A stretch of DNA of 6,063 nt, taken from Nitrospira sp. (lineage in GTDB: Bacteria; Nitrospirota; Nitrospiria; Nitrospirales; Nitrospiraceae). A program made the position numbers and the translations under genes. Numbering within the stretch: the stretch's first letter is position 1; every line of letters begins with the position of its first letter. Positions 2 through 6,063 of this stretch are shown in pieces. The stretch is from contig JABMDH010000064.1 of NCBI GenBank assembly GCA_015904075.1, forward strand, positions 14,036 through 20,098, written 5' to 3'. Below the pieces are notes generated by a model. The model did not search any database and was not told the DNA's origin. It worked only from the letters and a program-made list of their open reading frames with translations.

Positions 2-3000
2 GTGCTCAAGACCCTCCACGAATCCCGTCTGATCGAGCAGGTGGAATCGTTGGTCGTCCAGACTGCCGAAGCCGCGCATCTAGCGGACGCCCTCGCCCAG
101 GCAACAACTGAATCTGCTGCGAGCCGAAACACCGTCAACGACATCTTTGAGACGGTCCTAGCCTCCGCTCAGCCTGCACTTCTCAATACCGACCGAATTG
201 AGCGATCGTATGCACCGAATCTTCCTCACTTCACAGGAAATCTCGAGGCCTTAACACAGCTCCTGGGTATGCTCCTGTCACAGGCCCAACGTTATGTGGC
301 TGCTGTCGGAAGCCACCATCGATTGCGGATCAGCACGGCCCTGGTTGGTCCACACAATGCCCCGATACATCCAGGATTGGCTCTGTCCACGCAAGCGACT
401 CCCATGGAAGTCGCCATCCAGATCCAGGAGACCGATACCAGGACCACGACACAGGAGTTCCCCTCCCAAACGATCGGCAATCTCTTTGACGCGTATGCGT
501 TTATCAAACAGCTCGGTGGCCGTTGGGATTTCCGCGCCCCCGTCGGAGGCTTACTATCGATCAACGTATGGATTCCGCTCGAGCAGGCATCTCATGCAGA
601 TAGAACCTCGATGCCATCCCCTCCACCACGGACGGTGGCAAATGCTGAGAGTGAACCGCCTCCCGTGGCGCAGGTTTTGACTACGGCGCCTCCAACGCCC
701 TCGACGTCCGTTTTTCCTGCACCCACATCTCAACCGTTGCCCGACCGGCGTAAGGACATCCGGACGGCCGCCAATCTGCCGGCACGCCTGATAATCGGCA
801 ACGCACTGTACAGCGGCGCCCTCACTGAGCTAAGCCCGACCGGCGCAACCTTAGAGATCGACGGTTTCCTTCCATCACTTGAACACCAATCTGCTTCGGT
901 AATCGTCAAAACAGCCGCCAGCCTATTGGAGTTACATGGTACGGCATATGACCGCGGAGGAACAGCACCCCAAGCCGGCACTGAGCAACACACTTCGCGC
1001 CTTGCATTCCAGTTTGTCGGACTTGACGACATTGAACACACGGTATTGGTGTCACTCATCGAAGACGTGCGCACGCTAGCGATCACGGTCGAGGCGTTGT
1101 TCGCACCGACGGAACAGACCGACACCCTTAGCGAGTCCGCCATAGAGACTGTCCGTCGAGGCACCGATCATCGTGAAACCGTCAGAGTCCGAGTCTCACT
1201 GCCTGTCCGCATTACGACTCCATCGATCAAGTCAGGAACCAGCCATACATTGGGGCTAGCCGTCAATTTCAGCCGAGGCGGCCTATGCCTGCAAACAGAA
1301 TCGTGCCTAACAATGACCCACGACTTGATCGCTCTTCATTTCTCTTCTCACAGCGCCTTTGATCCGCCGCGTGGGCATGAACCGGAAGCACCCGAAGCGA
1401 TCCTGACCGGCCGCATCGTCCACATCACTTCCGACCACACCGTTCCCTCTGAATTGAAACCCGGCTTGTCACAGCCTGGACAACTTGTCGGCATCCGTTT
1501 TGAGCAATTGACCTCATTTGCAGAACGAGACATCAACCGTGTGATCGCCCAGCATACCGGCTCCGCAATAGATCTCGCCGGCACCACCGGCTGGTCATCA
1601 CTCGTCAGCACGAGACGGGAATGCCGGAATGCACGGAACCAGATGATCGTCATGACAGACGATCATGCCCGCCACCAAATTTCGCCAAGCGCGCCCATTA
1701 TTCTCATCGTCCCGGGATTCGGACTAACGCAAACCGACTACGCGCCGCTCTCGTTTTCGCTGGCCGCCAACGGTTTCCGCATCCTGCGCTACGACCACAC
1801 CAATCATGTCGGCCAGAGCGAAGGCGACATCCTACAGATCACATTGCGCAGTATGCAGAGCGATCTCCACGGTGTATTGGACTTTGTCCGCGCCACCTGG
1901 CCGAGCGCTCCATTGACGCTCTTCGCCGAAGACATTGCTGCGCGAGTAGCGGTAAAAACTCTGGCTAGAAGCAACTCGGTTGCTCATCTGCTCTTGCTGA
2001 ACCCCGTTCTTAACATCGACGGTGCACTCTCAGCCGTCTACGCTCCCGATGCCATCGGAAGCTACCGACAGGGTGTTCGGCGAGGCATCGCCAATCTGTG
2101 GGGCCTCAATGTCAACGTCGATCAGTTCGTCAGCGACGCCATTGCAGGAGACTATACCGACGTGGCCTCATCGGCAGCGGACTTTGCCAGACTGACGACC
2201 CCGCCCATTCTATTGACTTCTCCCGGTTCACATCGCCCTCTTGAAAACATGTTCGGGCCTCAACTCCAGACGTTCTCCGCCATGGGAACGGTACCGGTCA
2301 TCGTCCCATTACAAGTCGATCTGTCTGAAAATTCCAGTGTGTATGACGAACGTCATACCGCAGCCTGCCGAACCATCCTCAATCTCATCTCTGCTCCTTT
2401 GACCGGCAATTCTCCATCCCTTCACATACATGAACCGAATATGCGGGATGTTCGCCGACAGCAGCAGTTGGAGTACGAGCGCATCCGCCTGCGCCACCAT
2501 GTAACACAGGCAGCACGCAGCGCTTTGTGGATAGCGCATTTGGCCCAACTGTCTCAACTTGGACACCAGCCTGACTACTGGGCATTAGAAAACGATCTAT
2601 TTCGCCGGCTCCTCCCTCTTGAACCAGACATGACCATTCTGGACGTTGGCTGTGGAGAAGGCGACCTTGTCCGTATCATGTTGACCGACCTAATCTATCG
2701 ATCAATGTACAAAAGCGGGCTGCCGGACAGTCGTTTCTGTTACATCGGCGCTGGCTACTCACAAGAATCGCTGGACCTTGCTAAACAGTACGTCACCACA
2801 TTTGCTCAGACGCTACCGTTCTTGCTCACAACCGGCTTGCCCACAGACAGATTTTTGAACACCAGCTGGCTGCATATCGACTGGCATTCACCCCTTCCCT
2901 TGACCGAAGGATCAATCCAGCGCATCCTATGCCACCTCTCTCTTTCATTCTCCCCCTCTCCTCTTCACCGCCTCAGGCACATACTCCGAGTCTTGCATCC

Positions 3001-3292
3001 GGATGGACGGGCTGTGATCACGGTCCTTCAACCACACACCGATCTCACAACACTGTTTCAACGTCACCTGCGCACGTCAGCTCACGATCAGGATGACGCA
3101 TCAGCCCAAATTCTCCTCCATCATATCGGCCGCCTGCGCGAAGCCGTTCGTCATGGCCTGCTGCATAGCTACGAACGCAATGAGTTCACTCGCCTACTGG
3201 TCCATGCCGGCGCCGACCCGATCCAGATTGTTCCCGCCCTCGGCAATCAAGTGCTCCTCGCCGTCATCCGGAATGGCAAATCCACTGGCTGA
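2..3292 (+). CDS. Composite protein: degenerate kinase-like ATPase, tandem PilZ, LuxD-like hydrolase, SAM methyltransferase (5' end probably cut)
   Basis: The frame is open at the left edge. The GTG at base 2 has no visible ribosome binding site, and the first 60 residues look like the second helix of a HisKA region, so the true start probably lies upstream. Order in 1096 visible residues: HATPase-like fold at about 50-194 without its ATP-binding residues; Pro/Ala/Ser-rich linker at 196-247; PilZ 1 at about 247-357 (R250xxxR254, E276xSxxG281); PilZ 2 at about 388-517 (R391xxxR395, N422xSxxG427); alpha/beta-hydrolase at about 561-800; helical linker; class I methyltransferase at about 870-1092 (DVGCGEGD at 881-888). 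The hydrolase resembles LuxD acyl-ACP thioesterase (RYD at 596-598, HVGQSEG at 602-608, VDLSEN at 772-777), but the positions matching its Ser-Asp-His triad are D644, S743 and V772. No signal peptide or membrane segment is visible, so it is probably cytoplasmic. Inferred role: c-di-GMP-binding regulator or scaffold with possible methyltransferase activity. The substrate is unknown. Confidence 0.9.
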   Translation: MLKTLHESRLIEQVESLVVQTAEAAHLADALAQATTESAASRNTVNDIFETVLASAQPALLNTDRIERSYAPNLPHFTGNLEALTQLLGMLLSQAQRYVAAVGSHHRLRISTALVGPHNAPIHPGLALSTQATPMEVAIQIQETDTRTTTQEFPSQTIGNLFDAYAFIKQLGGRWDFRAPVGGLLSINVWIPLEQASHADRTSMPSPPPRTVANAESEPPPVAQVLTTAPPTPSTSVFPAPTSQPLPDRRKDIRTAANLPARLIIGNALYSGALTELSPTGATLEIDGFLPSLEHQSASVIVKTAASLLELHGTAYDRGGTAPQAGTEQHTSRLAFQFVGLDDIEHTVLVSLIEDVRTLAITVEALFAPTEQTDTLSESAIETVRRGTDHRETVRVRVSLPVRITTPSIKSGTSHTLGLAVNFSRGGLCLQTESCLTMTHDLIALHFSSHSAFDPPRGHEPEAPEAILTGRIVHITSDHTVPSELKPGLSQPGQLVGIRFEQLTSFAERDINRVIAQHTGSAIDLAGTTGWSSLVSTRRECRNARNQMIVMTDDHARHQISPSAPIILIVPGFGLTQTDYAPLSFSLAANGFRILRYDHTNHVGQSEGDILQITLRSMQSDLHGVLDFVRATWPSAPLTLFAEDIAARVAVKTLARSNSVAHLLLLNPVLNIDGALSAVYAPDAIGSYRQGVRRGIANLWGLNVNVDQFVSDAIAGDYTDVASSAADFARLTTPPILLTSPGSHRPLENMFGPQLQTFSAMGTVPVIVPLQVDLSENSSVYDERHTAACRTILNLISAPLTGNSPSLHIHEPNMRDVRRQQQLEYERIRLRHHVTQAARSALWIAHLAQLSQLGHQPDYWALENDLFRRLLPLEPDMTILDVGCGEGDLVRIMLTDLIYRSMYKSGLPDSRFCYIGAGYSQESLDLAKQYVTTFAQTLPFLLTTGLPTDRFLNTSWLHIDWHSPLPLTEGSIQRILCHLSLSFSPSPLHRLRHILRVLHPDGRAVITVLQPHTDLTTLFQRHLRTSAHDQDDASAQILLHHIGRLREAVRHGLLHSYERNEFTRLLVHAGADPIQIVPALGNQVLLAVIRNGKSTG
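1643..1666. repeat. Perfect 9-bp inverted repeat inside the composite gene
   Basis: ATGATCGTC at 1643-1651 and GACGATCAT at 1658-1666 are exact reverse complements separated by six bases (ATGACA). It lies in the coding region between the second PilZ domain and the LuxD-like domain, around residues 548-555. The mRNA could form a hairpin here. No function is evident, and one such repeat in 6 kb could arise by chance. Confidence 0.5.
2341..2358. repeat. 18-bp palindrome inside the composite gene
   Basis: GTATGACG at 2341-2348 and CGTCATAC at 2351-2358 are exact reverse complements around a two-base AA centre. It lies in the coding region just after the VDLSEN motif of the LuxD-like domain. The symmetry resembles a dimeric protein-binding site, but a palindrome this size is expected about once by chance in 6 kb, so it is recorded as sequence structure only. 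Confidence 0.4.
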
Positions 3293-3411: not shown

Positions 3412-4686
3412 ATGACCGACCACGTATGCCCGCAACACATGATGACTGCACCGTCCGCTGCTGAATCGCTACGGCGCCTGACACAGTTTTCACAAGCAAT
3501 CGGGGACATTACGAGCATCTCTGCGACTGCTGAGCGTGTGCTATCAGAATTGTCCCAAATGGCACACTGCCAACAGGGCGCTCTGTATCTCGCCGAGCAC
3601 GAACGCGCTGATTTTCTCCGCCTCGCTATACAAAGGCCGGTCTCAACGGAATCTGCGCCTCTTACGATTTCGGCTGGTCATCCCCTCATACGTTTTCTTG
3701 CAACACATCGGCAGATTCTTGACCAATCCGCCGGCACCAGTGTCGCTGCGGGAATCGCCCCTGACAGCCCTCCAGCACTGCTGCAGGGAATGTGCGGCGA
3801 TATGACCATTCCACTTGTCAATCGAGGACGATTGGTAGCCTTCGTCTTGCTCCAATCAAACCCGGCAACGAGCCAACTCGGCTCTAAACCCATAGAACTT
3901 TTGACCGCAATGGCCCAAAGCGCCGCCAATGTGCTGGACTCTCTATTGATCTGCGAAGACCTGCGTCAATCTCAAACGCTGATGCGCCGCACGGATCGGC
4001 TGCGTTCATTGGAGACTATCGCCGGAGGCTTTGCCCACGAAGTCAGAAACCCGCTGACGTCAATCAAGACCTTCATCCAGCTGGCTCCTGAACGAAAAGA
4101 CGACGCCGAATTCATGCACGATTTTAGCCAAATCGTGCTTGAGGACGTCCATCGGATCGAGCGCTTGATCCAAGAAATTCTCGACTACGCCCGTTACATG
4201 GAACCACAGCTGACCGAAGAAGATGTCAATGAAATCGTCTCATCATGCCTGTATTTCATCGATGTCAAAGCGCGCTCACGACAGATCAAGATTGAAAAAG
4301 AGTTGGCGTCTGAGCTGCCTCGTGTCATGCTGGACCGGCAGCAAATCAAGCAGGTCCTGTTGAACTTATTCCTGAACGCTATGGATGCTATCGGCGACCG
4401 CAACGGCACACTTCGAGTCAGAACCGCCAAGATGATGAAACCGGAAGGCGACATCTGGGTACAGATCGAAGTTGAGGATACGGGGTGCGGAATTCCAGCA
4501 GCAAATCTCGAACGCGTATTCGACCCCTTCTTTACCACCAAACATGACAGCGGAGAAAATGAAGGCACTGGACTGGGATTGGCCATTGTCCATCAGATTA
4601 TTCAAGAGCACCGGGGCAACATTCATGTGCGGAGCTCTGAAGGAGTCGGAACGACCTTTCACATTAACCTGCCCGCTCTGGCATGA
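3412..4686 (+). CDS. Cytoplasmic GAF-domain sensor histidine kinase
   Basis: This 424-residue kinase senses a signal through a GAF domain, autophosphorylates on histidine and passes the phosphate to a response regulator, most likely the product of the next gene. Visible order: GAF domain at about 20-180; short coiled-coil-like linker at about 181-197; HisKA with phospho-acceptor H209 in FAHEVRNPLTSIKTF; HATPase_c with N-box N318/N322, G1 box D356TGCG, F box FDPFF at 370-374 and G2 box GTGLGL at 385-390. All catalytic motifs are intact. There is no signal peptide or membrane helix, so the signal is probably intracellular. ATG 3412 is the first in-frame start, but no Shine-Dalgarno is visible before it. 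ATGs at 3439 and 3442 are alternatives and would still keep the whole GAF domain. The GAF-plus-NtrB-like kinase arrangement recalls the PrsK-type kinases of PEP-CTERM systems, but the membrane region typical of those is absent, so that name is not assigned. Confidence 0.95.
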   Translation: MTDHVCPQHMMTAPSAAESLRRLTQFSQAIGDITSISATAERVLSELSQMAHCQQGALYLAEHERADFLRLAIQRPVSTESAPLTISAGHPLIRFLATHRQILDQSAGTSVAAGIAPDSPPALLQGMCGDMTIPLVNRGRLVAFVLLQSNPATSQLGSKPIELLTAMAQSAANVLDSLLICEDLRQSQTLMRRTDRLRSLETIAGGFAHEVRNPLTSIKTFIQLAPERKDDAEFMHDFSQIVLEDVHRIERLIQEILDYARYMEPQLTEEDVNEIVSSCLYFIDVKARSRQIKIEKELASELPRVMLDRQQIKQVLLNLFLNAMDAIGDRNGTLRVRTAKMMKPEGDIWVQIEVEDTGCGIPAANLERVFDPFFTTKHDSGENEGTGLGLAIVHQIIQEHRGNIHVRSSEGVGTTFHINLPALA

Positions 4687-4704: not shown

Positions 4705-6063
4705 GTGGATAGTTCAGTTCTAAAAAAACGTGTCCTCTTGATCGACGACGAGGCGAGAGTCCGCACGTCGCTGAAAGTAGTGCTTGAGCCGACCTACGAG
4801 ATTCTCCAGGCTGCCGATGCGCAAGAAGGCCTTGATGTCTTTCGGAAGGAGGGACCGGATCTTGTACTGCTCGACGTGATGCTTCCGGGAACCGACGGAC
4901 TGGCAGTCCTTCAAACGCTTCGGGCCGAGAATAAAATGGTGCCGGTAATCATGCTGACAGGTACCAAGCTGGTAAAGACCGCGGTCGATGCTATGAAATT
5001 CGGCGCGGCAGACTATTTATCGAAGCCCTTCGACGTCGACGAATTACGCCTGGTCGTCGAACGCGCGTTAGAATCCCTGGCGCTCCAGCGCGAAGTCAAG
5101 CAGCTACGGAGCCAGGTTGTCCAACGCTATGCGTTCCACAACCTGATCGGAAAAAGCCAAGGCATGCAGGACATCTATGCGAAGATCGAGCAGGTCTCCG
5201 ACAGCCGCACCACGGTCCTAGTCACGGGCGAGAGCGGAACCGGCAAAGAGCTTGTCGCGAAAGCGCTGCATTACAACAGTTCTCGACGGGGGCGCCCCTG
5301 CATCGCGCTCAATTGCGCAGCGTTGCCGGAAACGTTGATCGAAAGCGAACTGTTCGGCCATGAAAAAGGCGCGTTCACGGATGCGACCGCACGGCGTACC
5401 GGGCAATTCGAACTGGCCCATACCGGGACGCTCTTTCTCGATGAAATCGGCGACCTGAGCCCCGTCACCCAGGCCAAGCTCCTGCGCGTCCTGCAAGAGC
5501 GGGAATTCACCAGAATCGGCGGCACCCAGTCGATCAAAGTCGATGTGCGTATTGTAGCGGCAACCAATAAAAACCTGGATGACCTGGTTCGAAAAGGCCA
5601 GTTCCGGGAAGACTTATATTATCGCATCAATGTCATCGCGCTCTATCTTCCTCCCCTCCGCGAACGCGGGGAAGACATTGCACTACTGGCGAAACATTTT
5701 CTCGCCAAACGGGTGGAAGAAGAAAAACGTCCGCGCATCGAGTTCTCAAAAGATGCCCTGGAAACGCTTGCACGTTACCCCTGGCCTGGCAATGTCCGCG
5801 AGTTGGAGAACATCGTTGAGCAAGCCTTTATTTGGTCACAGCAAGCCACTCAGATTACCCCTGAACATCTCCCATCTATTCTCAAGGGCGATATTCGGTC
5901 TTCATCTCTCCATGACGACACGCTTGCCGGGCGTATGTCGCTTGAAAAAGCGGTCATGGAATTTGAGCGGGAAATTATCCTAGACGCTCTAAAGCGCACT
6001 AACTACGTCCAAACCCACGCCGCTAATCTCCTCGGAATCAGCCGCCGTATGCTCAAATATCGT
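4705..6063 (+). CDS. NtrC-family sigma-54-dependent response regulator (3' end cut by the window)
   Basis: The 453 visible residues form a complete receiver and AAA+ domain and most of a Fis-type DNA-binding domain. Receiver (about 8-125): acidic pair D14/D15, phospho-acceptor D57, T85 and K107. AAA+ (about 146-375): Walker A GESGTGKE at 175-182, sigma-54 contact loop GAFTDA at 222-227, Walker B LFLDE at 243-247, sensor I region near N288, candidate arginine fingers R301 and R307, sensor II WPGNVRELEN at 360-369. Fis-type helix-turn-helix from about 413, ending within ISRRMLKYR, so probably only about ten residues are missing. When phosphorylated it should oligomerise, hydrolyse ATP and open sigma-54 RNA polymerase complexes. 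The start is GTG 4705, preceded by AGGAG, giving MDSSVLKKRVLLIDDE. The gene follows the kinase after 18 bases, so the two are almost certainly cotranscribed and cognate. The target genes cannot be read from this window. Confidence 0.95.
   Translation, partial: MDSSVLKKRVLLIDDEARVRTSLKVVLEPTYEILQAADAQEGLDVFRKEGPDLVLLDVMLPGTDGLAVLQTLRAENKMVPVIMLTGTKLVKTAVDAMKFGAADYLSKPFDVDELRLVVERALESLALQREVKQLRSQVVQRYAFHNLIGKSQGMQDIYAKIEQVSDSRTTVLVTGESGTGKELVAKALHYNSSRRGRPCIALNCAALPETLIESELFGHEKGAFTDATARRTGQFELAHTGTLFLDEIGDLSPVTQAKLLRVLQEREFTRIGGTQSIKVDVRIVAATNKNLDDLVRKGQFREDLYYRINVIALYLPPLRERGEDIALLAKHFLAKRVEEEKRPRIEFSKDALETLARYPWPGNVRELENIVEQAFIWSQQATQITPEHLPSILKGDIRSSSLHDDTLAGRMSLEKAVMEFEREIILDALKRTNYVQTHAANLLGISRRMLKYR

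Follow-up and report, generated by a model that had tools for sequence, protein, structure and literature searches.

The stretch of DNA analysed here (the window, 6,063 nucleotides in full) comes from Nitrospira sp. (assembly GCA_015904075.1, contig JABMDH010000064.1, positions 14,036 to 20,098 of the forward strand). It carries most of a gene for a multidomain signalling protein, followed on the same strand by genes for a soluble histidine kinase and a response regulator. The multidomain protein, hereafter the window protein, contains a LuxD-like hydrolase domain that has no catalytic triad and has an aspartate where LuxD has its nucleophile serine. The features are listed below in window coordinates.

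2..118, + strand: C-terminal part of a degenerate DHp (HisKA-like) helix (alignment to full-length homologues, modelled helix 2-40, hhalign to the neighbouring kinase)
119..580, + strand: degenerate HATPase_c domain, a pseudokinase (motif counts, profile comparisons)
581..736, + strand: proline-rich low-confidence linker (predicted local distance difference test score, pLDDT, below 50 at residues 196-254)
737..1105, + strand: PilZ domain 1 (RRKDIR at 746-763; E-L-S-P-T-G within 824-844)
1157..1561, + strand: PilZ domain 2 (RETVR within 1169-1186; NFSRGG at 1265-1282; near invariant)
1598..2419, + strand: LuxD-like alpha/beta-hydrolase fold without catalytic triad
1931..1933, + strand: Asp644 at the nucleophile-elbow position, LuxD position 114 (modelled strand 638-643 and helix 644-656; alignment to 1THT)
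2438..3277, + strand: class I methyltransferase fold (motif I DVGCGEGD at 2642-2665; Pfam, alignment, model)
3412..4686, + strand: soluble GAF-HisKA-HATPase histidine kinase (H, N, G1 and G2 motifs all present)
4705..6063, + strand: NtrC/AtoC-type response regulator (REC, sigma-54 AAA+, Fis helix-turn-helix (HTH)), cut by the window end (Pfam, NCBIfam)

The family gene encodes one long protein with a conserved domain order

Positions 2-3292 of the + strand form a single unbroken open reading frame (ORF) running to its stop, and the frame is open at the 5' end because the window begins inside the gene. Judged from full-length homologues, it encodes 1096 residues at the C-terminal end of a ~1400-residue protein, and ~312 N-terminal residues with the receiver (REC) and PAS domains lie upstream of the window. 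The domain order in Nitrospira is conserved as REC-PAS-pseudo-histidine-kinase-PilZ-PilZ-LuxD-like hydrolase-methyltransferase. An earlier note, made from the letters of the window alone, had proposed a five-part fusion in one uninterrupted frame, and the fusion proved real. Pfam recovered PilZ (1.8e-10, two stretches), Acyl_transf_2 of the LuxD type (7.7e-13), Hydrolase_4 (3.7e-9) and Methyltransf_23 (2.1e-7) in the window protein, while the HATPase region, below Pfam's reach, was recovered by profile-profile comparison. Searching for related proteins yielded 132 homologues with E <= 0.001 out of 7,995 candidates scored. Those listed are mostly of ~1,400 residues, with PAS at the N-terminus and in many cases also a REC match, and their frames are long and intact at identities as low as 35%. 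The alignment comprised 110 of the 120 homologues listed, 10 with fewer than 1300 residues being left out, and residue counts "of 110 rows" refer to this alignment.

A local misassembly or chimera, an error that the earlier note had considered, was ruled out, as the same domain order was found in one frame across independent Nitrospira genomes; the fusion is not a one-off. Contig ends apart, frames were broken in two loci only, L026 and L048. In L048 (2477-6375), the family gene is spread over several frames of this metagenome-assembled genome contig. The model-based structure comparison covered mainly residues 532-802 and 840-1093; the evidence for the PilZ and HATPase folds therefore comes from Pfam, sequence motifs, profile comparison and secondary structure. 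We are highly confident of this anatomy and of the conversion of the hydrolase described below.

The hydrolase has lost its triad and keeps an aspartate in place of the nucleophile

The best structural match of the hydrolase was 1THT, the myristoyl-ACP (acyl carrier protein) thioesterase LuxD of Vibrio harveyi, and the domain has a LuxD-like alpha/beta-hydrolase fold. The model also showed a methyltransferase fold. LuxD frees fatty acids from acyl-ACP, and positions 114, 211 and 241 of 1THT are what we take to be its catalytic triad Ser-Asp-His. Unlike LuxD, the window clade has no such triad: in the window hydrolase, Asp replaces Ser, and the acid and His are absent. It also differs from LuxD in being fused to methyltransferase, PilZ and signalling domains. 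The NCBIfam LuxD equivalog NF052253 scored 47.9 bits on the window protein against a cut-off of 420, and the scores of 79.5-112.5 bits in five scanned outgroups were likewise under that cut-off.

Of the 110 rows, 108 have Asp at the nucleophile position, one has N and one G, and the GFG and RYDxxNHxGxSxG residues around it were nearly invariant. That the Asp hardly varies while the acid and His columns drift points to a new constraint of a non-catalytic kind. The active sites are indeed eroded, as the earlier note had supposed, but in the hydrolase the erosion is not random.

Converted copies form a single clade

Relatives were collected by scanning genome contigs with two short peptide patterns (82, of which 80 were kept, giving 75 loci), and all were Nitrospirota according to their record titles. 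The loci L001-L048 encode the eight-domain protein, except for contig ends and the two broken frames; L049-L054 encode PilZ-hydrolase-methyltransferase, and L055-L071 and L073 a protein of ~780 residues. REC-PAS stands ahead of PilZ in L053 and L054, and in L050 REC-PAS-PilZ is a separate adjoining gene. L160-L162 have no pseudokinase, as judged from the short PAS-PilZ spacing (~50-130 residues) and the stretch in L160.

The outgroups retain Ser, Asp and His, and in a profile of intact relatives these residues align to 1THT positions 114, 211 and 241. The three residues plus the methyltransferase acid were found in 120 of 123 aligned rows (reference included; among the matches listed), a count biased towards intact copies because an intact copy was the query. 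L052-L054 have Asn in place of Ser, with acid and His retained. In a tree of 92 chosen rows (quick, with midpoint rooting, as for the kinase tree below), the converted copies formed one clade of 50 rows with a Shimodaira-Hasegawa approximate likelihood ratio test (SH-aLRT) value of 100. Asp occupied the nucleophile position in 50/50 rows of this clade; the acid and His columns held many letters, with His in none. L152 and L158, which branch first in the clade, have Asp in the acid column, and so do three other rows. A single change of Ser on the tree counts the three Asn rows together with the Asp rows. On the unrooted tree, the Asn rows adjoin the Asp clade, so that Asn may be an intermediate state.

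A hidden intact paralogue was sought in six genomes (G001-G006), and each had a single copy with the hydrolase part. Two-copy genomes occur elsewhere: in G129 and G117, an intact copy is paired with a membrane kinase at one site, and the syntenic site has a converted copy next to a soluble kinase.

Conversion and the type of the partner kinase changed together

Of the 75 loci, 64 contain the kinase cluster, which in 61 of them is the next ORF. The regulator cluster occurs at 45 loci. A REC-HD-GYP protein is encoded at 43, of which 36 show the HD-GYP motifs; the window ends before the place of this gene. The outgroup kinases have 721-1,009 residues, with HisKA_7TM and GAF in those scanned. Kinases under 600 residues were called soluble, crude hydropathy giving them 0-1 hydrophobic segments versus 3-12 in the membrane kinases. 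When kinases over 400 residues with both genes readable were counted, all 27 unconverted copies (26 with Ser; L053 with Asn) had a membrane kinase, and all 42 converted copies, the window included, had a soluble one. L019, L033 and L044, cut by contig ends, were excluded, and L072, L074 and L075, whose contigs start inside the methyltransferase and whose kinases are soluble, are in neither number. On the kinase tree, one change of kinase type suffices. The enzyme-kinase pair is kept in differing neighbourhoods across groups, and these varied neighbourhoods, like the double modules of G129 and G117, may be taken as independent support for a functional pair.

The earlier note had spoken of kinase remnants and eroded sites in general terms, and the outgroups make this idea specific, the hydrolase-methyltransferase being intact with a membrane kinase and converted where the kinase is soluble. 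Its suggestion that the protein controls the methyltransferase or an acyl-related partner did not hold up as well. The partner of the window protein is likely the adjacent kinase/NtrC pair.

The same kinase class also occurs with other enzymes. In N. moscoviensis and relatives, an acyl-ACP-reductase-like enzyme preceded it at 10 of 10 membrane-kinase loci (L166-L175) and at 0 of 2 loci with a soluble kinase (L176, L177). This enzyme matched TIGR04058 at E 1.2e-22 (below cut-off) and PDB 6JZU at E 1.2e-19, and among NCBIfam models the N-terminal part of PigE matched it best (2.9e-38, likewise below cut-off). By eye, the protein seemed to begin with a PilZ-like region, which Pfam did not report. 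At L165 (6625-10616), a membrane GAF kinase overlaps the acyl-ACP-reductase-like (PigE-like) gene ahead of it by 4 bases. At L053 (4243-5841), a gene for a protein of PilZ and beta-ketoacyl-ACP synthase III (KAS III, FabH-like) lies between the family gene and the kinase.

PilZ, methyltransferase and pseudokinase domains

In PilZ domain 1, both Arg of the RxxxR motif were present in 110/110 rows; the second motif had D/N in 82/110, and the window has Glu there. In PilZ domain 2, RxxxR was present in 110/110 rows and N/D-x-S-x-x-G had N in 107, D in 3, S in 107 and G in 110, so the receptor motifs of PilZ (RxxxR, D/NxSxxG) are present in the window and in nearly all rows. YcgR is a PilZ receptor of cyclic di-GMP (c-di-GMP). 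PilZ domain 2 is like YcgR-type receptors in having RxxxR and N/DxSxxG and unlike them in domain context; the Pfam scan reported no YcgR-type N-terminal domain. A search of the PilZ part against PDB by sequence gave a single match at E 0.29, which was useless. With these motifs and the REC-HD-GYP neighbour, the c-di-GMP-gated regulator of the earlier note is probably still the best class of explanation for the window protein, although its specifics had to be revised.

Motif I of the methyltransferase is kept (D in 107/110 and G in 110/110 rows). The acidic residue after strand 2 was D/E in 73/110 rows and Gly in 32/110, the window included (within 2747-2761). Family matches of the methyltransferase (BioC, Mtf2 and others) scored far under their cut-offs.

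The HATPase-like region that the earlier note had read from the letters was confirmed by hhalign, which aligned its profile with that of the neighbouring kinase over 221 columns (prob 97.1, E 5.7e-11), and by weaker profile matches to PDB kinases (8vc9, E 5e-4; 9jfj, E 8e-4). With motif columns placed by alignment to the neighbouring kinase, H stood at the H-box column in 9 of 109 filled rows (the next column had His in 25 rows), the N-box Asn was absent in 109/110 rows (N in 1), and the G1 Asp was Glu in 110/110. The HisKA/HATPase part thus does not have the residues expected of an active histidine kinase (acceptor His, N-box Asn, intact G boxes). In the receiver domain of the homologues, 102 of 107 filled rows kept the Asp and all 109 the Lys, and the usual acid pair was replaced by N/S and then E, A, D or S. 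In P0003, REC scored 28.5 bits, just below the Pfam cut-off of 30.2, and PDB receivers matched the family profile. In the linker (about 581-736), pLDDT was below 50 for most of the length.

Selection, gene loss and further features of the loci

The ratio of nonsynonymous to synonymous substitution rates (dN/dS) was below 1 in every folded domain (8 close pairs; 7 for REC and PAS). It was 0.08-0.54 in the N-half and 0.13-0.57 in the C-half of the hydrolase, 0.10-0.36 in the methyltransferase, 0.09-0.58 in PilZ domain 2 and 0.09-0.88 in REC, and only the linker reached 1.03, in one pair. Among genomes of the N. moscoviensis genus group, a hydrolase-methyltransferase match (E <= 1e-20) was present in 36 of 79 (one a fragment) and a kinase match (E <= 1e-60) in 69 of 77. 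At 12 empty sites, that is, loci with the kinase and without the family gene, the regulator and HD-GYP neighbours were retained in 12/12, the upstream neighbour was the next ORF in 7/12, and a scar of the methyltransferase end was left in 5/12. The family gene shows four presence/absence changes on the kinase tree. Its repeated deletion in Nitrospira marks it as an accessory gene.

A conserved upstream neighbour of ~386 residues (L001, 8287-9693) had its cluster in 41/75 loci, and the copies scanned matched nothing in Pfam or NCBIfam. In the complete genome of N. moscoviensis (L029, 9932-15043), a 1703-residue family ORF continues without a change of frame into the sigma-54 AAA+/HTH region of the regulator; neither the kinase nor the receiver part is present there. 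At L159 (7383-12308), a frame of 1641 residues joins PilZ-PilZ-hydrolase-methyltransferase to a seven-transmembrane (7TM) kinase; as the two genes overlap by 4 bases in relatives, this frame may be a frameshift, and it was not relied upon. A sigma-54-like site reached the threshold in 4 of 42 stretches upstream of the family gene (about 1% in shuffles) and in 10 of 36 before the HD-GYP gene (0.4% in shuffles). With a stricter pattern, 8 of 42 loci (L020, L022, L028, L034, L037, L039, L049 and L075) had such a site before the REC-HD-GYP gene, seven of these loci being close relatives.

Discussion

The triad was lost in the same transition that removed the membrane sensor of the neighbouring kinase, which suggests that a signal maker was turned into an internal regulator. 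Our leading explanation, offered tentatively, is that the window gene codes for an acyl-signal synthase that has retired from catalysis and now modulates the adjacent soluble kinase and regulator. The ancestor would have been a PilZ-regulated LuxD-like acyl thioesterase with a methyltransferase, paired with a multi-span membrane GAF histidine kinase. This enzyme would release or esterify a fatty-acyl signal under c-di-GMP control via PilZ, and the membrane kinase would sense it. From what is known of LuxD, Rpf and PhcB, together with gene linkage, we infer an acyl-derived signal for the paired kinase. In the window clade, Ser has given way to Asp, the triad His and mostly the acid are lost, a pseudo-histidine-kinase module stands between PAS and PilZ, and the partner kinase is without a membrane sensor. 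The window protein is most likely an intracellular modulator of the soluble kinase and the sigma-54 response regulator, and it would integrate c-di-GMP (through PilZ), REC/PAS input and perhaps a ligand retained in the hydrolase pocket. It would act on the kinase through DHp/HATPase contacts, a direction of control that, like the binding of c-di-GMP and ligand, is predicted from domains and linkage.

Several observations weigh against this explanation. Because the conversion and the change of kinase belong to a single historical transition, there is no statistical replication of their coupling, and L053 has Asn for Ser yet a membrane kinase. A long-branch warning applies around the join of L152 and L158, and both trees are quick and midpoint-rooted. 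Two of the 110 rows have no Asp at the nucleophile position, and the Asp may be structural. The substrate of the methyltransferase is a guess, since the family scores lie far under the cut-offs, and the reductase-like partner is best matched by a part of PigE and not by acyl-ACP reductase. The hydrolase-methyltransferase gene had no match in 43 of the 79 genus-group genomes (of unstated completeness), and such absences, with the scars at empty sites, mean that the family gene is dispensable.

These absences and scars, together with the four presence/absence changes, would also be expected of a decaying relic that keeps residual structural roles after the signal system was abandoned and is heading to loss. 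The drift of the acid, His and methyltransferase acid and the dN/dS values of up to 0.57 in the hydrolase C-half and 0.88 in REC point the same way. However, homologues down to 35% identity keep long intact frames, dN/dS is 0.08-0.58 in the hydrolase N-half, PilZ domain 2 and methyltransferase (8 pairs), and the Asp, GFG and RYDxxNHxGxSxG residues hardly vary, and we regard decay as rather improbable. A similarly low probability attaches to a methyltransferase that is still active and forms the output, with c-di-GMP and the pseudo-modules gating methylation. The conserved motif I, a D/E acid in 73/110 rows and the modelled fold are consistent with it, but Gly takes the acidic position in 32/110 rows, the window among them, and no strong family match points to a substrate.

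The ancestor itself might have been something other than a synthase, its hydrolase-methyltransferase modifying lipids or degrading foreign signals while the kinase sensed the envelope state. Weak NCBIfam matches to acyl-homoserine-lactone (AHL) lactonase and exosortase-associated hydrolases fit such a role, and an acyl substrate is supported by likeness of fold and family only. We think this unlikely, as the kinase pairing holds across several neighbourhoods and the same kinase class is paired with other enzymes resembling acyl-ACP users. Far less probable still is that the Asp acts as a new catalytic nucleophile. Haloalkane dehalogenases and epoxide hydrolases do use Asp in this way, and Asp occupies the nucleophile elbow in 108/110 rows; however, none of the 50 rows of the converted clade has the triad His, and the acid column is variable.

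For the retired-synthase explanation, known systems offer partial parallels. In Rpf, an acyl-ACP enzyme works together with a multi-span kinase and an HD-GYP protein (PMC4504480). As in this diffusible signal factor (DSF) system (RpfF-RpfC-RpfG), L050, L053, L160 and L162 co-encode an acyl-ACP-type enzyme, a multi-span sensor kinase and REC-HD-GYP, and a REC-HD-GYP regulator is present in 43/75 loci. Unlike in Rpf, a LuxD-like hydrolase with a methyltransferase takes the place of the crotonase-type synthase, the regulator is of the NtrC type, and the window clade has a converted enzyme and a soluble kinase. Pfam scans of selected locus proteins, not every ORF, gave no enoyl-CoA hydratase family, to which a crotonase-type synthase such as RpfF would belong. 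In Ralstonia, according to PMC8578825, the methyltransferase PhcB makes a 3-hydroxy fatty acid methyl ester that PhcS senses. By this description, a methyltransferase as signal maker and a sensor kinase as reader are alike in the two systems; they differ in that a thioesterase-like domain is fused ahead of the methyltransferase here.

The gibberellin receptor GID1 is a hydrolase fold turned receptor with its catalytic His lost (PMC3531792) and may serve, by analogy, as a precedent for the path from hydrolase to receptor. The window hydrolase likewise has no catalytic His and retains a conserved pocket region. Compared with GID1 as portrayed there, its Ser is replaced too, it is bacterial and multidomain, and its ligand role is putative. 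No description of the window protein or of LuxD-methyltransferase-PilZ fusions was found in the open-licence literature. The window protein combines known kinds of domains and signalling logic in a new variant. Whether it belongs to something larger is doubtful: Nitrospirales might have an undescribed class of signalling modules that pair PilZ-regulated acyl-ACP-type enzymes with 7TM-GAF kinases. Its enzymes would include, equally doubtfully, the LuxD-like hydrolase-methyltransferase, the acyl-ACP-reductase-like enzyme and PilZ-KAS III, and in Nitrospira one synthase, through its Ser-to-Asp conversion and the loss of the membrane sensor from its kinase, would now be an intracellular, receptor-like pseudoenzyme comparable to GID1, reading c-di-GMP and an acyl ligand.

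Nitrospira are major nitrifiers. The quorum sensing surveyed for their order is of the AHL type (PMC12342949). If the explanation favoured here is true, a second signalling class, derived from acyl-ACP and linked to c-di-GMP, would be new for Nitrospira. The putative working form and the retired one co-occur in some genomes, which makes direct comparison possible, and the family would provide a tree-placed case of an enzyme turned regulator alongside a change of its partner.

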